From Rhodospirillales bacterium BBD 1991-14 (GTDB lineage: Bacteria > Pseudomonadota > Alphaproteobacteria > Kiloniellales > Kiloniellaceae), in NCBI GenBank assembly GCA_001657395.1, contig LYSY01000002.1, forward strand, positions 496,001 to 560,000: 64,000 bases of DNA. Direction: 5' to 3'. The translations under genes were made by a program, and so were the position numbers. The notes beneath the pieces were generated by a model, which did no database searches, was not told where the DNA came from, and saw only the letters and a program-made list of their open reading frames with translations. How positions within the stretch are numbered: the stretch's first letter is position 1; each line of letters begins with the position of its first letter. This document shows, one piece after another, positions 44,819 through 54,240 of the stretch.

Positions 44819-45493
44819 GCCGTGCCCGATCCCCGGGGCGCGGACGGCCCCCCTAACTGGCTTCCCAATGTGCCCGGTAACACGCTCCGTCCCGGCCGCG
44901 GCCGTTTCGGCACGGCCCTCTCGCCGCCGCCCCCGCCGAAAGTGTCGCGCGGCACTCCATCAAAGGTCTTAGTTCCAAAAAGAAATACTACCATGAATAG
45001 AAATACAGCTTTGCCTTCGACAGTTTGGGACTTCAACAGCTTATCTTGGGAACAATGCTTCACCGATCCTACGCATAACTTTGCCAATACGGGAACCATT
45101 TGTGACCTATTTTTCCGCGTATTTCAAAACGGAACTGCATTTTGCGCTCTGGACTAGGAAAGCGGTCCGCAGGTTCCTTGAAACTGCCGCAAATCCGCCA
45201 CAGTCCCTCTGCAGCGTGGCCGCCATGCAGCGCTGTCCCTGCGCAGCGCACCGGCATCCCCGCGGGCGATGCCGGCCCTGGGGAGAGCTTTGGGGGAAAG
45301 CTTTGGGAAGGATCCAACACTATGACTGGAAAGATGGGACCGGAACGATGGGACCGGACCGATCGCCGGCACGCTGCGGGTCGACCGGCCGACAGCCGCG
45401 CCCAAGCGGTCCTGCCGACGCTGTTCTGGCGGTGTAACCCCGGGAATTCGGTGTTGCGGCGCTTGGCCGCAGCGTCCAGGCGGCTTAGAAATG

Positions 45494-45570
45494 AACCCGG
45501 TGCCGCTGGCGGCACGAGCGAACCCGGTGCCGGCGGCGGCACGAGCGAACCCGGCGCGGTGGCTGCACGG
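45494..45570. repeat. 27-bp tandem repeat, about 2.8 units
   Basis: Units start at 45494, 45521 and 45548, each beginning AACCCGG and ending GGCACGAGCG or a variant. The second differs from the first at two positions, and the third is shorter and diverged. It is non-coding, upstream of chvI. Confidence 0.75.
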
Positions 45571-45736: not shown

Positions 45737-46441
45737 ATGCAAGACACCATCGCCCTGGTGGATGATGACCGCAACATCCTGACATCGGTCTCCATCGCGC
45801 TGGAAGCCGAGGGCTTCAAGGTGCGCACTTACAACGACGGAGCCGAGGCCCTGCGCGGCCTCACCGCCAGTCCGGTGGATCTGGCCGTTCTCGACATCAA
45901 GATGCCGCGCATGGACGGCATGGAACTGCTGGGCCATCTGCGCAAGACCTCGAATCTGCCGATCATCTTCCTGACTTCCAAGGACGACGAGATCGACGAA
46001 GTTCTGGGCCTGCGTATGGGGGCCGACGACTACATCACCAAGCCCTTCTCCCAGCGTCTGCTGATTGAGCGGATCCGCGCCCTGCTGCGGCGCGAGAAGG
46101 GCGGCGAGGACGGCATGCCGGGGACGCCGGGCGGCGAGGCGCCGATTACGCGCGGGGACCTGACGCTGGACCCGGCGCGTCATCTCTGTACCTGGAAGGA
46201 TGACCGCGTCAACCTGACGGTGACCGAGTTCCTGATCCTCAAGGCCCTGGCGCTGCGCCCGGGCCATGTGAAGAACCGCGACCAGTTGATGGATGCCGCC
46301 TATGGCGAGTCCATCTATGTCGACGACCGCACCATCGACAGTCACATCAAGCGGCTGCGCAAGAAGTTCCGGGATGCTGACGACAATTTCCAGCAGATCG
46401 AGACGCTCTATGGCGTCGGTTACCGCTACCGCGAGCCCTGA
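45737..46441 (+). CDS. chvI: ChvI-type response regulator
   Basis: This 234-residue OmpR-family regulator has a receiver domain (about 1-120) with acidic pocket VDDDRN, phospho-acceptor Asp in [14 protein letters not shown] and Lys in ITKPFSQ. Its winged-helix DNA-binding domain (about 135-232) includes [31 protein letters not shown] and the recognition region [17 protein letters not shown]. It pairs with the ChvG kinase encoded 80 bp downstream. In rhizobia and Agrobacterium, ChvG/ChvI governs acid, envelope and host-associated responses. The gene order with hprK and the PTS genes supports the assignment. Confidence 0.9.
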
Positions 46442-46522: not shown

Positions 46523-48268
46523 ATGGTGAGCACGGAAAACAGGGCCGGCGGCCCGCTGGGCAATCCGTTGCAGGGCCCGGCGGAGGGCCCGGTGAAGAAC
46601 ATCGCATCCGGCGGCGAGGCACCGGCGCGCCGCCGCGCCGAGCAGGCCGAAGAGGAGACGTCGGGCGCGCGCAGCCTGCCGCGCCGGCGGCGGCGATGGC
46701 GCTCTCCGCTCACCCGCCGCATTCTCACCATCAACGTGCTGGTTCTGCTGATCCCGGTTCTGGGGCTGCTGCACCTCGACCAGTATCGGGAAAGCCTGAT
46801 CGCGGCGGAGCTGGATTCCCTGCGCATTCAGGGGCGGGCCTTTTCCCTGTCGCTGGGCAGCACCGCGGTGGTCGCGACCCAGGTGGGCGACGAGCAGCTT
46901 TTGCCGGAGGTGACGCGCAACCTGATGCGGGTGCTGCTGGTGGACACCGGCGTGCGCGCGCGGATCTTCGCCCGCACCGGTGACCTGCTGGCCGACAGTT
47001 TCGTGCTCGGCGGGCCGGGCGGCAAGGTTCAGGTCGTCGCCTTGCCGCCGGAGGAAAAGGGCGGCCTCAGCCTCCTGGGCCGGCTCTACGAGGCGGTCCT
47101 GAAATGGGTTCCGGGCGAGGACGACTTCCCGCTGTACCGCGAGGAGCCGGTGCAGCAGGCCCTGCACTACGCCGAGGTCGGCGGCGCCCTTGCGGGCGAA
47201 AGCCCCGGCATGGTGCGTGTCGACCGCCAGGGGCGCCTGGTGCTTTCGATCGCCGTGCCGGTGCAGCGCTACCGGCAGATCCTGGGCGCGCTCATGCTGT
47301 CGAAGGACGGTGCGGACATCGATGCCGCGGTGGACGACCGGCGCCGCGACATCCTCATCGTCTGCGGCCTCGCCCTGGCGGTGACGGTGCTGCTGTCGTT
47401 CTATCTGGCCGGCACGATCGCGCGGCCGATCCGCCGCCTTGCGCAGGCGGCCGACCGCGTGCGTTTCGGCAAGGGCCGGCAGTTCGAGATCCCGGACTTC
47501 CGCCGCCGCGGCGACGAAGTGGGCGATCTTTCCGATGCCCTGCGTTCGATGACCGAGGCCCTGTGGAATCGCATGGACGCCATCGAGGCCTTCGCCGCCG
47601 ATGTCGCCCACGAAATCAAGAATCCCCTGACCTCACTGCGCAGCGCGGTGGAGACGGTGGCCCGGGTGGAGGACCCCGAACAGCAGCGCCGGCTGATGTC
47701 GATCATTCTCGACGACGTGCATCGCCTCGACCGGCTGATCAGCGACATCTCCGACGCCTCGCGGCTGGACGCGGAACTCTCCAGGGCGGAGAGCGAGTCG
47801 GTGGACGTCGGCGAGCTGCTGCGCGCCCTGGCCTCGCTGCACGAAGCCGTCGACGCCGATGACGGTCCGCGCTTCGTCCTCGACATGGTCGATCATCAGA
47901 ACCTGCGGGTTCTCGGAATGGAGGCCCGCCTGGGCCAGGTCTTCCGCAATCTGATCACAAACGCCATGACCTTCTCGCCGCCGGGCGGGACCATTCGCCT
48001 CTCGGCCCTGCGGCAGGGCGAGGAGATCGAGATCTCCGTCTGCGACGACGGCCCGGGCATTCCGGAAGGCAAACTGGAAGCGGTCTTCGAGCGCTTCTAC
48101 AGCGAGCGGCCGGCGGGCGAGAAGTTCGGTACCCATTCGGGGCTGGGCCTGTCCATCTCCAAGCAGATCGTCGAGGCCCACGGCGGCACCATCGAAGCCG
48201 AGAACCGCTGCGATGCCGACGGCACTGTGGTGGGCGCCTGCTTCGTCGTCATCCTGCCGGCCGAGTGA
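46523..48268 (+). CDS. chvG: ChvG-type sensor histidine kinase
   Basis: This 581-residue inner-membrane kinase has TM1 at about 60-80 (LTRRILTINVLVLLIPVLGLLHL), a roughly 200-residue periplasmic stimulus domain and TM2 near 275-295 (ILIVCGLALAVTVLLSFYLAG). HAMP follows (IARPIRRLAQAADRVRFGKG). HisKA has VAHEIKNPLTSLRSAVE, and HATPase_c has FRNLITNAMTF, CDDGPGIP and GLGLSISKQIVEAHGG. It carries a 55-residue Arg/Ala-rich N-terminal tail; the in-frame GTG 46469 would lengthen it further. In rhizobia the periplasmic inhibitor ExoR acts on this kinase; none is seen here. Confidence 0.9.
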   Translation: MVSTENRAGGPLGNPLQGPAEGPVKNIASGGEAPARRRAEQAEEETSGARSLPRRRRRWRSPLTRRILTINVLVLLIPVLGLLHLDQYRESLIAAELDSLRIQGRAFSLSLGSTAVVATQVGDEQLLPEVTRNLMRVLLVDTGVRARIFARTGDLLADSFVLGGPGGKVQVVALPPEEKGGLSLLGRLYEAVLKWVPGEDDFPLYREEPVQQALHYAEVGGALAGESPGMVRVDRQGRLVLSIAVPVQRYRQILGALMLSKDGADIDAAVDDRRRDILIVCGLALAVTVLLSFYLAGTIARPIRRLAQAADRVRFGKGRQFEIPDFRRRGDEVGDLSDALRSMTEALWNRMDAIEAFAADVAHEIKNPLTSLRSAVETVARVEDPEQQRRLMSIILDDVHRLDRLISDISDASRLDAELSRAESESVDVGELLRALASLHEAVDADDGPRFVLDMVDHQNLRVLGMEARLGQVFRNLITNAMTFSPPGGTIRLSALRQGEEIEISVCDDGPGIPEGKLEAVFERFYSERPAGEKFGTHSGLGLSISKQIVEAHGGTIEAENRCDADGTVVGACFVVILPAE

Positions 48269-48292: not shown

Positions 48293-49774
48293 ATGACGCC
48301 TGTGAACGATGACCGGGCGCCAGGGCAGAACCTCCACGCGACGACGATAGCGCTCGGCGATTGGGCGGTGGCGCTGCTGGGTCCGCCCGGTGCCGGCAAG
48401 TCCGATCTGGCGCTGCGCATGATCGACCAGGGCGCTGTTCTGGTCAGCGACGATCAGACCCTGCTGCAGGTCTCGGACGGCCGCCTCGTCGCGCGGCCGC
48501 CGGAGAGCATCGCCGGCAAGCTGGAGGTGCGCGGCCTGGGCATCGTCGAGATGCCCCATCGCCCCTCTGCACCGCTTGCGCTGCTGGCGGAGCTGCGCCC
48601 TCAGAGCGAGATCGAGCGGTTGCCGGAGCCGCGGCGGCGGAGGCTTCAGGGAGTCGACCTGCCGGTGATCGCCCTCGATCCGCACGGCATCTCTGCGCCG
48701 GAGAAGCTGCGCCTTGCACTGCGCCTTGCACTGGGCCAGCCGGCCGCGCTTATAATGCGCGCCCCCGCGGAGGCGGTTTCTGCCGGCCCGCAGGAAAACG
48801 ACATGACCGCGTGTGGCGATACCTTTGGCGGCGATACCTTTGGCGGTGCGACTGTGAGCGATCAGACGGTGACCGAAGCGCAGGGGGAAAGCCGCGAAGC
48901 GCTGCGTCTGGTGCTGGTGACCGGCATGTCCGGGGCGGGCCGCTCGACCGCGCTGCGCATCCTCGAAGACGAAGGCTACGAAGCCATCGACAACCTGCCC
49001 CTCAGCCTGCTCGACGCGGTGGTCGGCGAAGTGGGGCTCAAGCGGCCGATTGCGGTCGGCGTCGATATCCGCACGCGGGACTTTGCGGTCGGTCCCGTGC
49101 TGGACCAGCTGGACGCCCTGGCCCGCAGCCCGCGCTTCGCCACCACGCTGCTCTTCGTCGACTGCGAGGACGAGGTGCTGGGACGCCGCTTCACGGAGAC
49201 CCGGCGCCGTCATCCGCTGGCGCAGGACCGGCCGGTCGCCGACGGCATCGCCGCGGAACGGCGGCTGGTCGCGCCGCTGCGCGAACGCGCCGATATGATG
49301 ATCGATTCCTCGCGGCTGACCCCTGCGGACTTCCGCGCGCAGTTGCTGGGCCATGTCGGCCTCGGCGGCGGCGCCGGGATGGCGGTGTTCGTGACCTCCT
49401 TTTCCTTCCGCCAGGGCCTGCCGCGGGAGGCCGATCTGGTTTTCGACGTGCGCTTTCTGGCCAACCCGCACTACGACCCCGCGCTGCGGCCGCTCTCGGG
49501 CCGCGACGAGGCGGTGGCCGGTTTTGTGGCGCGCGATCCCGGGTTCGCCCCCTTTTTCGACCATCTGACCCGCATGCTGGCACCGCTGCTGCCGCGCTAC
49601 GAGCGGGAAGGCAAGAGCTACCTGACCATCGCTATCGGCTGCACCGGCGGGCGCCACCGCTCCGTCTTCACGGCAGAGAGGCTCGCCGCCTGGTTGGCCG
49701 AGGAGGGGCGTCCCGTGCATCTGGGGCACCGCGATATTGCCCGCGATCCGCAGCGCGCGGCGGAAAAACGCTAA
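48293..49774 (+). CDS. HPr kinase (short form) fused in frame to RapZ
   Basis: This 493-residue single frame joins two proteins usually encoded by adjacent genes. Residues 1-160 are the short alphaproteobacterial HPr kinase/phosphorylase, with Walker A LLGPPGAGKSDLALR and LVSDDQTLL. Residues about 205-493 are RapZ/YvcJ, with Walker A LVTGMSGAGRSTALRILED and NLPLSLLD. The C-terminal domain contains VFVTSFSFRQGLPREADLVFDVRFLANPHY and AIGCTGGRHRSVFTAERLA. The linker (about 165-200) holds a 15-bp duplication (GDTFGG twice). ATG 48803, preceded by AGGAAAACG, could restart RapZ translation separately. It lies between chvG and the EIIA gene. Confidence 0.88.
   Translation: MTPVNDDRAPGQNLHATTIALGDWAVALLGPPGAGKSDLALRMIDQGAVLVSDDQTLLQVSDGRLVARPPESIAGKLEVRGLGIVEMPHRPSAPLALLAELRPQSEIERLPEPRRRRLQGVDLPVIALDPHGISAPEKLRLALRLALGQPAALIMRAPAEAVSAGPQENDMTACGDTFGGDTFGGATVSDQTVTEAQGESREALRLVLVTGMSGAGRSTALRILEDEGYEAIDNLPLSLLDAVVGEVGLKRPIAVGVDIRTRDFAVGPVLDQLDALARSPRFATTLLFVDCEDEVLGRRFTETRRRHPLAQDRPVADGIAAERRLVAPLRERADMMIDSSRLTPADFRAQLLGHVGLGGGAGMAVFVTSFSFRQGLPREADLVFDVRFLANPHYDPALRPLSGRDEAVAGFVARDPGFAPFFDHLTRMLAPLLPRYEREGKSYLTIAIGCTGGRHRSVFTAERLAAWLAEEGRPVHLGHRDIARDPQRAAEKR
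48815..48844. repeat. 15-bp in-frame duplication in the HprK-RapZ linker
   Basis: GGCGATACCTTTGGC occurs twice in tandem (48815-48829 and 48830-48844), encoding Gly-Asp-Thr-Phe-Gly repeats. The unit is a multiple of three and sits exactly at the junction of the two domains. Confidence 0.85.
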
Positions 49775-49851
49775 GGCCAGGCAGGGGCCAGGCAGGGGCC
49801 AGGCAGGGGCCAGGCAGGGGCCAGGCAGGGGCCAGGCAGGGGCCAAGCGGG
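49775..49851. repeat. 11-bp tandem array, seven units
   Basis: Six perfect copies of GGCCAGGCAGG are followed by one diverged copy, starting immediately after the stop codon of the HprK-RapZ gene. There are no spacers, so it is not a CRISPR array. The remaining roughly 170 bp to the EIIA gene contain no ORF and an A/T patch (49940-49960) that may be a promoter. Confidence 0.9.
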
Positions 49852-50024
49852 GGACAGGCAGCGGAAGGCGGTCCGGGCAAGGCAATCGGGACATAAACTG
49901 ACGGTTGAGATCGGCCATTGACCGGGGGCATCGCTTCGGGTCCTTATCATGACAATAAGGCTTGACCCGCCGCCGTGGGGCCGCTGCGGTAGGGTCAGCC
50001 GTCAAAGCCGGCAGGGAGCAAAGA

Positions 50025-50432
50025 ATGATCGGTCTTGTCTTGGTAACCCATGGGCGCCTCGCGGTGGAGTTCGTCCAGGCCCTGGAGCATGTCGTCGGGC
50101 CGCAGGAGAACGTCACTGCAATCTGTATCGGCCCGGAGGACGATATGGAGCAGCGCCGCCAGGACATCATCGATGCCGTTTCTTCCGCCGAGCAGGGCGA
50201 CGGCGTCGTGCTTCTGACCGATATGTTCGGCGGCACGCCCTCCAACCTCGCGATCTCCGTTCTCGACAAGGGCCGCGTCGAGGTGATCGCCGGCATCAAC
50301 CTGCCGATGCTGATCAAGCTGACCGGACTGCGCAACACCGCCAACCTGGCCGAGGCCGTCACCCAGGCCCAGCTCGCCGGGCGCAAGTACATCAACGTTG
50401 CGTCCCAGCTCCTGGAATCGGATCGCGACTGA
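50025..50432 (+). CDS. PTS EIIA component, mannose family (regulatory)
   Basis: This 135-residue EIIA(Man)-fold protein has phospho-acceptor His9 in LVLVTHGRLAVEF, then GVVLLTDMFGGTPSNLAI and LPMLIKLTGLRNTANLAEAV, all typical of the family. No EIIB or EIIC gene is nearby, so it belongs to a regulatory PTS in which phosphate from PEP passes EI to HPr to EIIA to signal carbon or nitrogen status. GGGAGC precedes the ATG. Its stop overlaps the HPr start (TGATG). Confidence 0.9.
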   Translation: MIGLVLVTHGRLAVEFVQALEHVVGPQENVTAICIGPEDDMEQRRQDIIDAVSSAEQGDGVVLLTDMFGGTPSNLAISVLDKGRVEVIAGINLPMLIKLTGLRNTANLAEAVTQAQLAGRKYINVASQLLESDRD

Positions 50433-50779
50433 TGGACAAGCCCGCCGAAGCCAAGACCGCCGCCAAGACCGCCGCCAAGACCGCCGCCGAGACCGCTGCC
50501 GCGAACGACCGCGTCACGCGGCGCCTGACGATCCAGAACCAGAAAGGCCTGCACGCGCGGGCCGCCGCCAAGTTCGTCAAGCTGGCGGAGTCCTTCGATG
50601 CGCAGATCACGGTTATCAAGAGCGGCACGCGGGTGTCCGGCTGTTCGATCATGGGGCTGATGATGCTGGCGGCCGGTCCCGGCTGCGAAATCGATGTCGA
50701 GGCCAGCGGCCTGGGGGCGGTCGAGGCGGTCGAAGCCCTGGCCCGCCTGGTCGACGGCAAGTTCGATGAAGACGGCTAG
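50432..50779 (+). CDS. ptsH: HPr phosphocarrier with repetitive N-terminal extension
   Basis: This 115-residue HPr has catalytic His41 in NQKGLHARAAAKFVKL and the regulatory Ser72 in VSGCSIMGLMML, the site expected for the HPr kinase encoded upstream. The conserved domain begins near residue 27, preceded by an Ala/Lys/Thr-rich extension (AAKTAAKTAAET) from a 12-bp tandem repeat. It overlaps the EIIA stop by one base and the EI start by 14 bp. Confidence 0.92.
   Translation: MDKPAEAKTAAKTAAKTAAETAAANDRVTRRLTIQNQKGLHARAAAKFVKLAESFDAQITVIKSGTRVSGCSIMGLMMLAAGPGCEIDVEASGLGAVEAVEALARLVDGKFDEDG
50447..50494. repeat. 12-bp tandem repeat in the ptsH N-terminus
   Basis: About four copies of GCCGCCAAGACC (the first and last slightly altered) encode repeated Ala-Ala-Lys-Thr. 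The unit is a multiple of three, so copy changes preserve the frame and alter only the disordered tail of HPr. Confidence 0.85.
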
Positions 50780-52547
50780 CAAAGGCCGGCGCCGGCCCCG
50801 CGAACAGGTTTTCGAGGGGCTGGCCGTTTCTCCCGGTGTCAGCATCGGGCCCGCCTTCGTGCGCGAATCGGGCGATCTCCACGTCCCCGAGTACCAGGTT
50901 CCTGCCGGGCGCGTGCGCCGCGAGAAGAAGCGCTTCGCCGAGGCGACCGCCAAAGCCGTCCGGCAGGTCGGCAAGCTGAAGGCCAAGTCCCTCGGCATTC
51001 ATGGTCTGGCTGCCGAAGAGCTCGGTTACCTGCTGGACGCGCATCTGCAGATGCTGAAATCGCGCCGGCTGATCGGCGGCATCGAAGCGCGCATCGAATC
51101 CGAGCGCCGCAATGCCGAGGCGGCGGTGATGGCGGAAATCTCGGCCCTGGCGCAGGAATTCGTAGCCATGGAGGACGACTACCTCAGCGCCCGTGCCGAT
51201 GACGTGCGCGAGGTCGGCCACCGCATTCTCCGCAACCTCACCGATACGGCCTACCGCGGCTTCAGCGGCGTCGAGAAGGGCAGCATCGTCATTGCCGAGG
51301 AGATCTCCCCCGCCGATACCGCGCTGATGGACCCGGAGCAGATCACCGGCTTTGCCTGCCTGATGGGCGGCGCCGAGGGGCACACCGCGATCATGGCCCG
51401 CTCGCTCGGCCTGCCGGCGGTGCTGGGGGTCGGCGGACTGATCCCGGCCATCAAATCAGGCGACATGCTCATCGTCGACGGCAGCAGCGGCCTTGTGATC
51501 CTCAACCCGACGGGCAAGCGCCTTGCGGCCTATCAGAAGCGCCTCAAGGCCATGGCGCGCGAGGCCCGCTCTCTGGCACGCCTGCGGGATATCCCGGCCG
51601 AGACGCGCGACGGCCAGCGTATCCTCATGGAGGTCAACCTGGAACTGCCGCGCGAGGCGGCCCAGGCCGCCGTGGTGGGCGCCGAGGGCGTGGGCCTGCT
51701 GCGCACCGAGTTCTTTTACATGAACCGCGACGACCTGCCGGACGAGGACGAGCAGTACGCCGCGCTGGCGCAGATCGTGAAGGCCATGAAGGGCCGGCCG
51801 GTGACGGTGCGCACCCTGGATGTCGGCGGTGAGAAGCTGGCCTCCTCCCTGGGCGATCATCTCGGCGAGGCGCAGAACCCGGCGCTCGGCCTGCGGGCCA
51901 TCCGGCTGTCGCTGAAGGAACCCAAGTTGTTGCGCACCCAGTTGGCGGCCATGCTGCGGGCCGCCGCCCATGGGCCCCTGCGCATCCTCCTGCCGATGAT
52001 CTCCACCCCCGGCGAAATCATCGCTGTCCGCAAGGAGCTGGAGAAGACGGCCCGGCGCCTGCGCCGCCGGGGTCTCGAGGTTGCCGACCCTCTGCCGCCG
52101 CTGGGGGTGATGATCGAGGTGCCCGGGGCGGCGCTGGCGGCGGATTCCCTGGCCCAGAACTGCGACTTCTTCGCCATCGGCACCAACGACCTCACCATGT
52201 ACACCCTGGCCATCGACCGCGGCGAGGAGCAGGTCGCCTATCTCTACAACCCCCTGCATCCGGCGGTGCTGCGGCTGATCCAGTTCTCCGTCGAGGCTGC
52301 CCTGCGCGCGCGCATCCCGGTTTCGGTCTGCGGCGAGATGGCCGGCGATCCGCGGTTTACCGCGCTGCTGCTGGGCCTCGGCGTGCGGGAGCTTTCGATG
52401 ACGGTAAAGGCCGTGCCGCGGGTGAAAAGCCGGATTCTGGGCCTGGACATGCAGGCCGCCGCCCGGCGCGCGCAGATGATCATGGACCAGGTCGACAGCA
52501 CCCGTATCGCCACCTTGCTGGACGACTTCAACGAAACCGTCGCCTGA
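50766..52547 (+). CDS. ptsI: PTS enzyme I (PEP-protein phosphotransferase)
   Basis: This 593-residue EI starts the phosphorelay from PEP. The HPr-binding/phosphohistidine domain includes the active His in [22 protein letters not shown]. The C-terminal PEP-binding TIM barrel has [58 protein letters not shown] and [12 protein letters not shown]. There is no N-terminal GAF domain, so it is not PtsP of the classical PTS-Ntr type. The gene starts inside ptsH by 14 bp. Confidence 0.93.

Positions 52548-52839: not shown

Positions 52840-54240
<1,401 letters not shown>

Follow-up and report, generated by a model that had tools for sequence, protein, structure and literature searches.

The gene at 48293-49774 (+) of the window (the whole stretch of DNA analyzed here, 64,000 nucleotides of contig LYSY01000002.1 from Rhodospirillales bacterium BBD 1991-14) is confirmed as a genuine in-frame fusion of a short alphaproteobacterial HprK, a linker of ~50 residues and a full RapZ. 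For the genus Pelagibius, to which this genome belongs, we favor with moderate confidence a clade-conserved bifunctional fusion that also encloses a nested rapZ gene, marked by a TATAAT element at 48751-48756 and a GTG start codon at 48854. The initial annotation had described the locus as one 493-residue frame, and this is borne out both by the reading frame, which is uninterrupted from ATG to stop (candidate start codons being ATG 48293 or GTG 48302), and by the Pfam domains of its two halves; the computed mass of the 493-residue product (53.2 kDa) likewise agrees with the roughly 53 kDa that had been predicted.

The short HprK (NPr/HPr serine kinase) domain occupies 48320-48730 (+; approximately residues 10-146), as judged by Pfam, residue conservation and fold matches to 1kkl and 3tqf, and is followed by a disordered linker at 48743-48895 (+; residues 151-201) and by the RapZ domain at 48902-49771 (+; residues 204-493) with its P-loop GMSGAGRS. 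Pfam places Hpr_kinase_C at residues 9-87 (53.6 bits versus a cut-off of 33.3), RapZ-like_N (PF03668) at residues 205-352 and the RapZ C-terminal domain (PF22740) at residues 363-482, while the NCBIfam RapZ equivalog NF003828 matches residues 206-482 at 318.8 bits, above its cut-off of 244. The HprK part scored below the NCBIfam equivalog cut-offs (39.9 versus 252 bits for PRK05428.2-1 and 55.3 versus 240 for TIGR00679). The genome itself contains one match to the fusion protein, its one RapZ match. Relatives of solved structure at E < 0.001 were RapZ (5o5q, 5o5o and 5o5s), Rv1421 (9m1q) and HprK (1ko7, 1jb1, 2qmh, 3tqf and 1knx), the match to the E. coli RapZ structure 5o5q reaching 202 bits. 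In an AlphaFold2 model (nine sequences) the HprK part was confident, the RapZ part of middling confidence and the linker at pLDDT ~28, and the relative placing of the domains carries no meaning because the pTM is 0.45; Foldseek with this model returned E. coli RapZ on top (5o5o), then the HprK structures 1kkl, 2qmh and 3tqf.

At the residue level, the three motifs named in the initial annotation (the Walker A sequences GPPGAGKS and GMSGAGRS and the C-terminal GCTGGRHRS) were all found in the translation. In HprK, GPPGAGKS, which fits the Walker A pattern GxxGxGKS, spans residues 30-37, the catalytic DD pair is D53-D54, and the signature LEVRGLGIV spans residues 77-85 (E78-R80-G81-G83); the consensus given in PMC2937029 is (I,L,M)E(I,V)RG(I,L,M,V)G(I,V)(I,L,M), and the last residue here, V, lies outside the final (I,L,M) of that consensus. 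K36 and S37 of Walker A and the DD pair were conserved in 41 of the 43 fused rows, the remaining two being gaps. In RapZ, the pocket for sulphate or amino sugar reported in PMC9841335 (H190, T248, G249, H252 and R253) corresponds to H393, T451, G452, H455 and R456. The equivalents of H190, G249, H252 and R253 were conserved in 41 of 42 fused rows (one gap) and that of T248 in 40 of 42 (P in the P. marinus genome G002, and one gap). The presumed amino-sugar-phosphate pocket of the fused RapZ is intact.

Two oddities were noted in the relatives. In P. marinus NBU2595 (L007, L056) the GCTGGRHRS of the RapZ C-terminal domain is replaced by RCPGGRHRP, which reflects either an altered pocket or local sequence errors. 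In addition, G006 and G002 carry second, distant HprK-like stretches elsewhere (L009 1501-1674 and L010 1501-1674), which match at 43-46% identity across some 56 residues surrounding the P-loop.

The fusion extends well beyond one genome. The initial annotation had suggested searching for it in relatives and aligning the junction: it was present without a stop codon in all eight Pelagibius genomes (the present one and seven others at 72-94% identity), among them the isolates P. litoralis DSM 21314 and P. marinus NBU2595 (L054, L056) as well as metagenome bins, and the linkers differed by multiples of three. All 61 genomes searched in the order gave a match, and in 60 of them a single contig allowed both domains to be scored (G038 was left out because of contig breaks): 42 were fused and 18 separate, so the fusion is not peculiar to this genome. 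Two of the 42 fused loci (G013 and G037) stop at contig ends within RapZ. The separate state was found in g2 (4 of 4), g3 (1 of 1), g5 (9 of 9), g23 (3 of 3) and G059. That a sequencing or assembly error deleted the stop between two ordinary genes might be suspected from the short tandem repeats that the linker holds, but its probability is practically nil: the same uninterrupted frame in this and seven other genomes of the genus, isolates and metagenome bins alike, excludes chance as well as such an error and, together with the 42 fused genomes of the order, has already refuted this explanation.

Outside the order, separate neighboring genes are the rule in the class, as had been stated for alphaproteobacteria. 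In a class sample of 240 genomes (three of them from the order) 174 gave a match; among the best 60 further class RapZ loci, HprK lay upstream on the same piece in 55, of which 54 were separate and one fused, the other five loci being unscored. Another 12 loci of the class that have long open frames, and 20 such loci from a 299-genome phylum sample, yielded no fusion (in five of these 32 there was no HprK on the piece). The sole fused locus of the 55, in the 77% complete class genome G071 (L086), represents either an independent fusion or contamination.

Within Pelagibius, the length of the linker varies and its frame does not. The distance between the KLRLA motif in HprK and the RapZ P-loop was 168, 180, 183, 183, 183, 219, 222 and 228 nt in the eight genomes, all multiples of three; these six lengths require at least five indels, one third of which would be expected in frame if the frame were irrelevant. 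In genera with separate genes the distance drifts: 154, 154, 154 and 150 nt in g2 and 149, 148, 148, 150, 150, 149, 150, 150 and 150 nt in g5, and over 50 unfused loci it was spread 13/16/21 across the three frames. The linker dN/dS was 0.43-1.47 versus 0.01-0.16 for RapZ (nine pairs computed), and the linker sequence is therefore at most weakly constrained as protein, as would be expected for a disordered tether. The 15-bp in-frame tandem duplication noted in the initial annotation is present at 48815-48846 (+; 2.1 copies), but a role for it in the fusion is not supported, as the G005 fusion has a different and longer sequence at that place. A further in-frame tandem repeat, of 12 bp, lies at the end of HprK (48707-48737; LRLALRLAL) and duplicates the CTTGCA element described below; its extra residues are absent from the seven relatives in the genus.

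A second, shorter RapZ product had also been proposed, starting from an internal ATG at 48803-48805 (+) with AGGA upstream. Both ATG and AGGA are present and a shorter product is plausible, but this codon is CTG in the closest relative and is therefore not the best candidate for the start. A better one is GTG at 48854-48856 (+; product of 306 residues, 33.6 kDa), preceded by GGCGGTG at 48842-48848 (+), which from its sequence may be the ribosome-binding site. The homologous codon was of start type in all eight Pelagibius genomes (three ATG, four GTG and one TTG) in a column aligned by eye on the Shine-Dalgarno motif, which MAFFT splits for three rows. The ribosome-binding duplex energy for GTG 48854 was -8.4 kcal/mol, although 24% of random sites reach -5 and such energies barely distinguish real from random starts. 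In the junction, scanned from ~10 codons ahead of where the HprK match ends up to five codons short of the RapZ P-loop, some in-frame ATG occurred in 22 of 42 fused loci of the order versus 15 of 18 separate ones (the count in Pelagibius including the ATG of TATAATG itself), and two fused loci, G025 and G026, had no ATG, GTG or TTG. In these two genomes, therefore, RapZ should exist only as the fusion.

The 3' end of hprK carries a promoter-like element, comprising a -10-like TATAAT at 48751-48756 (+) and a -35-like CTTGCA at 48725-48730 (+), with a 19-nt spacer between TTGCAC and TATAAT. The TATAAT was exact in seven of the eight Pelagibius genomes and TATATT in the eighth. In scans of the whole junction, exact TATAAT was found in 3 of 18 separate loci of the order, 2 of 34 other fused loci of the order and 6 of 54 class loci. 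When one mismatch was allowed, the element was found in all eight Pelagibius, 16 of 18 separate, 4 of 34 other fused and 20 of 54 class loci; the background in rapZ bodies was 2 exact and 58 within one mismatch over 93,216 positions. At the expected place, all eight Pelagibius genomes had a site with at most one mismatch, as did 15 of 18 separate loci of the order, 2 of 27 other fused loci and 12 of 32 separate class loci, while the chance rate at comparable LA sites in rapZ bodies was 1 of 559. CTTGC stood 18-19 nt upstream of the TATAAT-like element in many loci. The Leu codon of the -35-like element was CTT in 50 of 80 Leu sites versus a background of 8.6%, and CTT was associated with the presence of a TATAAT-like site in the expected position (35 of 37 versus 15 of 43, Fisher p 1.2e-8); the 28 of 114 loci missed by the KLRLA motif search (seven other fused loci of the order and 21 class loci) are absent from both the CTT and the expected-place counts.

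Codon usage also marks the element. Its rare codon ATA was retained in all eight Pelagibius genomes (elsewhere in these genes, 5 of 125 Ile codons), as was the rare CTT (elsewhere, 14 of 432 Leu codons), and the synonymous divergence of HprK and RapZ was dS 0.5-1.1 in three within-genus pairs. A sigma-70 consensus scan that allowed spacers of 16-18 nt returned no site in the region because the spacer of the element is 19 nt; despite that spacer, the conservation of TATAAT and CTT argues for a function. In part of the class the TATAAT-like element overlaps the hprK stop codon TAA, which makes it weaker evidence in those loci; this does not apply to Pelagibius, in which translation reads through ATA ATG. 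Judged from these alignments, the Pelagibius element is conserved at the DNA level and has mostly been lost in other fused lineages. The rows behind the fusion and promoter counts are related, so that these counts overstate the number of independent events; fusion versus promoter loss tested by independent pairs (only four pairs) was not significant.

The distribution of the two states suggests an old fusion. A quick operon tree was built from ChvI, ChvG, EIIA, NPr, PtsP and AhcY (78 rows; G046, G071 and G146 were dropped for too little sequence). On this tree, which lacks bootstraps and has 14 open forks, 15 of 78 rows less than half filled and a chosen outgroup that is not one side of any branch, the order formed one clade and the fused or separate state needed at least five changes, which can be read as one basal fusion plus about four splits (g2 with g5, g23, G059 and G012). 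A two-state model on the same tree gave the ancestor of the order a probability of being fused of 0.996 under unequal and 0.990 under equal rates. Thus the ancestor of the order was probably already fused, and independent fusions in several of its lineages are possible. The tree of HprK plus RapZ was poorly resolved at depth; on a quick version of it a single clade of all fused rows (41 rows versus 32) was rejected by the AU test (p 0.017), a result that later splits would explain, since splits predict such a rejection. The fused ancestor would still have carried both nested signals, promoter and start codon; lineages that then lost these would have become obligate fusions, others would have regained a stop codon and split again, and Pelagibius would retain both the fusion and the nested rapZ gene.

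Which products are actually made is the point on which explanations differ. It could be that the fusion protein alone is made and that the TATAAT and internal start of Pelagibius are non-functional remnants of an ancestral separate rapZ. This is consistent with the loss of the element from most other fused loci (present in 2 of 27 at the expected place and 4 of 34 junction-wide), with the two fused loci whose scanned junctions hold no start-type codon, with the lack of conservation of ATG 48803 and with the negative sigma-70 scan. Remnants should decay, however, and the rare codons of the element were kept in all eight Pelagibius genomes despite synonymous divergence, just as the internal codon stayed of start type in all eight; we therefore regard this explanation as unlikely, though to be reckoned with. 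Conversely, free RapZ could be the working product in Pelagibius and the fused frame a by-product, tolerated after hprK lost its stop codon, as the conserved nested promoter and start and the weak constraint on linker amino acids might suggest. Nothing would then hold the frame, yet at least five indels in the genus were all multiples of three and all eight loci are free of stops; moreover, the same order includes fusions whose junction holds no start-type codon and its ancestor was probably fused, all of which makes the by-product explanation improbable.

On the favored reading, that of a bifunctional fusion enclosing a nested gene, the fusion protein is very probably made, and the odds lean modestly towards Pelagibius also making free RapZ. 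Free RapZ would be produced from a nested sigma-70-like promoter and its own start codon, independently of the chvI-chvG transcript, whereas some other fused genera can probably make only the fusion.

The neighborhood places the fusion in an envelope-stress and phosphotransferase gene cluster. Assigned by Pfam, a ChvI-type response regulator (45737-46441, +) lies upstream in the same cluster and a ChvG-type sensor kinase (46523-48268, +) directly upstream; downstream are EIIA-Man (ptsM; 50025-50432, +), NPr/HPr (ptsO; 50432-50779, +), which is the presumed HprK substrate with GLHARAA and the serine site SIMGLMML, an Enzyme I-type PtsP (50766-52547, +) and S-adenosylhomocysteine hydrolase (52840-54240, +). 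Among 81 stretches around the loci of relatives, the neighborhoods included chvI in 67, ChvG in 71, EIIA in 77, NPr in 72 and PtsP in 67. Rfam on the window gave one tRNA only. Several repeats accompany these genes: a 27-bp tandem repeat (45493-45569; 2.9 copies) ~170 bases upstream of chvI; an 11-bp tandem repeat (49775-49861; 7.9 copies) that begins directly after the fusion stop codon and whose unit is missing from the corresponding spacer of the seven other Pelagibius genomes; and a 12-bp repeat (50450-50500) that encodes an Ala/Lys/Thr-rich N-terminal extension of NPr (KTAAKTAAKTAAETAA). Upstream of ptsM, at 49918-49959, TTGACC stands ~20 nt before CTTATCATGACAATAAG, an arrangement recognizable in several Pelagibius genomes; TTGACC/CTTATCATGACAATAAG is likely a second promoter or operator.

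Reading from the outer start would yield a bifunctional protein in which the HprK kinase is tethered via the linker to RapZ, its presumed substrate being the serine of NPr, whose gene is the second one downstream. RapZ oligomers might gather the kinase domains, such that bound amino-sugar phosphate would tune NPr-serine phosphorylation and, through it, the flow of phosphate to EIIA proteins beside the ChvG/ChvI envelope-stress system. With RapZ as an amino-sugar sensor, the fused kinase would tie cell-wall precursor supply to NPr-serine phosphorylation within an envelope-stress operon; in Caulobacter, the chvIG-hprK operon is induced by osmotic shock or peptidoglycan-targeting antibiotics (PMC9731502). 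That the biochemical coupling between HprK and RapZ in the fusion is real appears rather doubtful. A broader proposal, likewise tentative, is that two products are made by design, the fusion being read from the chvI-chvG transcript while free RapZ comes from the nested promoter, that their ratio sets amino-sugar control of NPr-serine phosphorylation, and that this dual state is ancestral and was resolved into obligate fusions or re-split genes.

RNA sensing by the fused RapZ is unproven but possible. Of the seven basic RNA-contact residues reported in PMC9841335 (K170, R184, K194, R196, R211, R238 and K251), six are still basic here, namely R373 (K170R), R387 (R184), R399 (R196), R414 (R211), K441 (R238K) and R454 (K251R), and the one lost is K194, whose equivalent is A397; the equivalent of H171 is Q. 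Across the 42 fused rows, position 194 was mostly A or E and position 211 mostly non-basic. A search for GlmZ (RF00083) gave no match in this genome, E. coli being positive among 14 controls. PMC7073468 limits the RNA-binding domain to Enterobacteriaceae, describes wide conservation of the presumed GlcN6P site, and speculates that control of a two-component system was the older function.

We found no report of an HprK-RapZ fusion in open-licence PubMed Central, and mention elsewhere or in database domain architectures is possible. Only three papers there mention both HprK and RapZ: the 2026 PTS-Ntr review PMC13104625, in whose available text no word begins with "fusion", PMC8760340, which is unrelated, and PMC6171935. 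The available text of PMC2405797, a 222-genome screen with 77 HprK aligned, names Fusobacterium as the only exception to single-polypeptide HprK, and that screen thus contained no RapZ fusion. Retained across most of an order, the fusion is evidence of the Rosetta-stone kind for joint action of HprK and RapZ in Alphaproteobacteria, and it bears on the role of RapZ outside enterobacteria and on its relation to HprK and the adjacent PTS-Ntr. Moreover, a nested promoter and start would make this locus a natural case of fusion and fission of neighboring genes with a living intermediate.

Among known systems, the HprK of Fusobacterium nucleatum named in PMC2405797 is also part of a fused polypeptide, which consists of two HprK domains in tandem. 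E. coli RapZ (YhbJ/YvcJ), an RNase adapter and amino-sugar sensor, has both RapZ domains and the pocket in common with the fusion, whereas the latter differs in its N-terminal kinase, in the changes K194 to A and H171 to Q, and in that no GlmZ was found. The short HprK proteins of Brucella melitensis, Sinorhizobium and Agrobacterium likewise comprise the C-terminal kinase domain only, with Walker A, the DD pair and the signature, and short alphaproteobacterial HprK genes likewise lie after a ChvG-type kinase and before ptsM-ptsO. There, however, hprK is a separate gene rather than fused to RapZ; in Brucella it is co-transcribed directly with ptsM, and its product phosphorylates NPr on Ser61 but shows hardly any activity in the reverse direction (PMC2937029). 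Finally, the separate hprK and rapZ of other Alphaproteobacteria share the gene order of the fusion and, in 20 of the 54 scored class loci, a TATAAT-like element with at most one mismatch.
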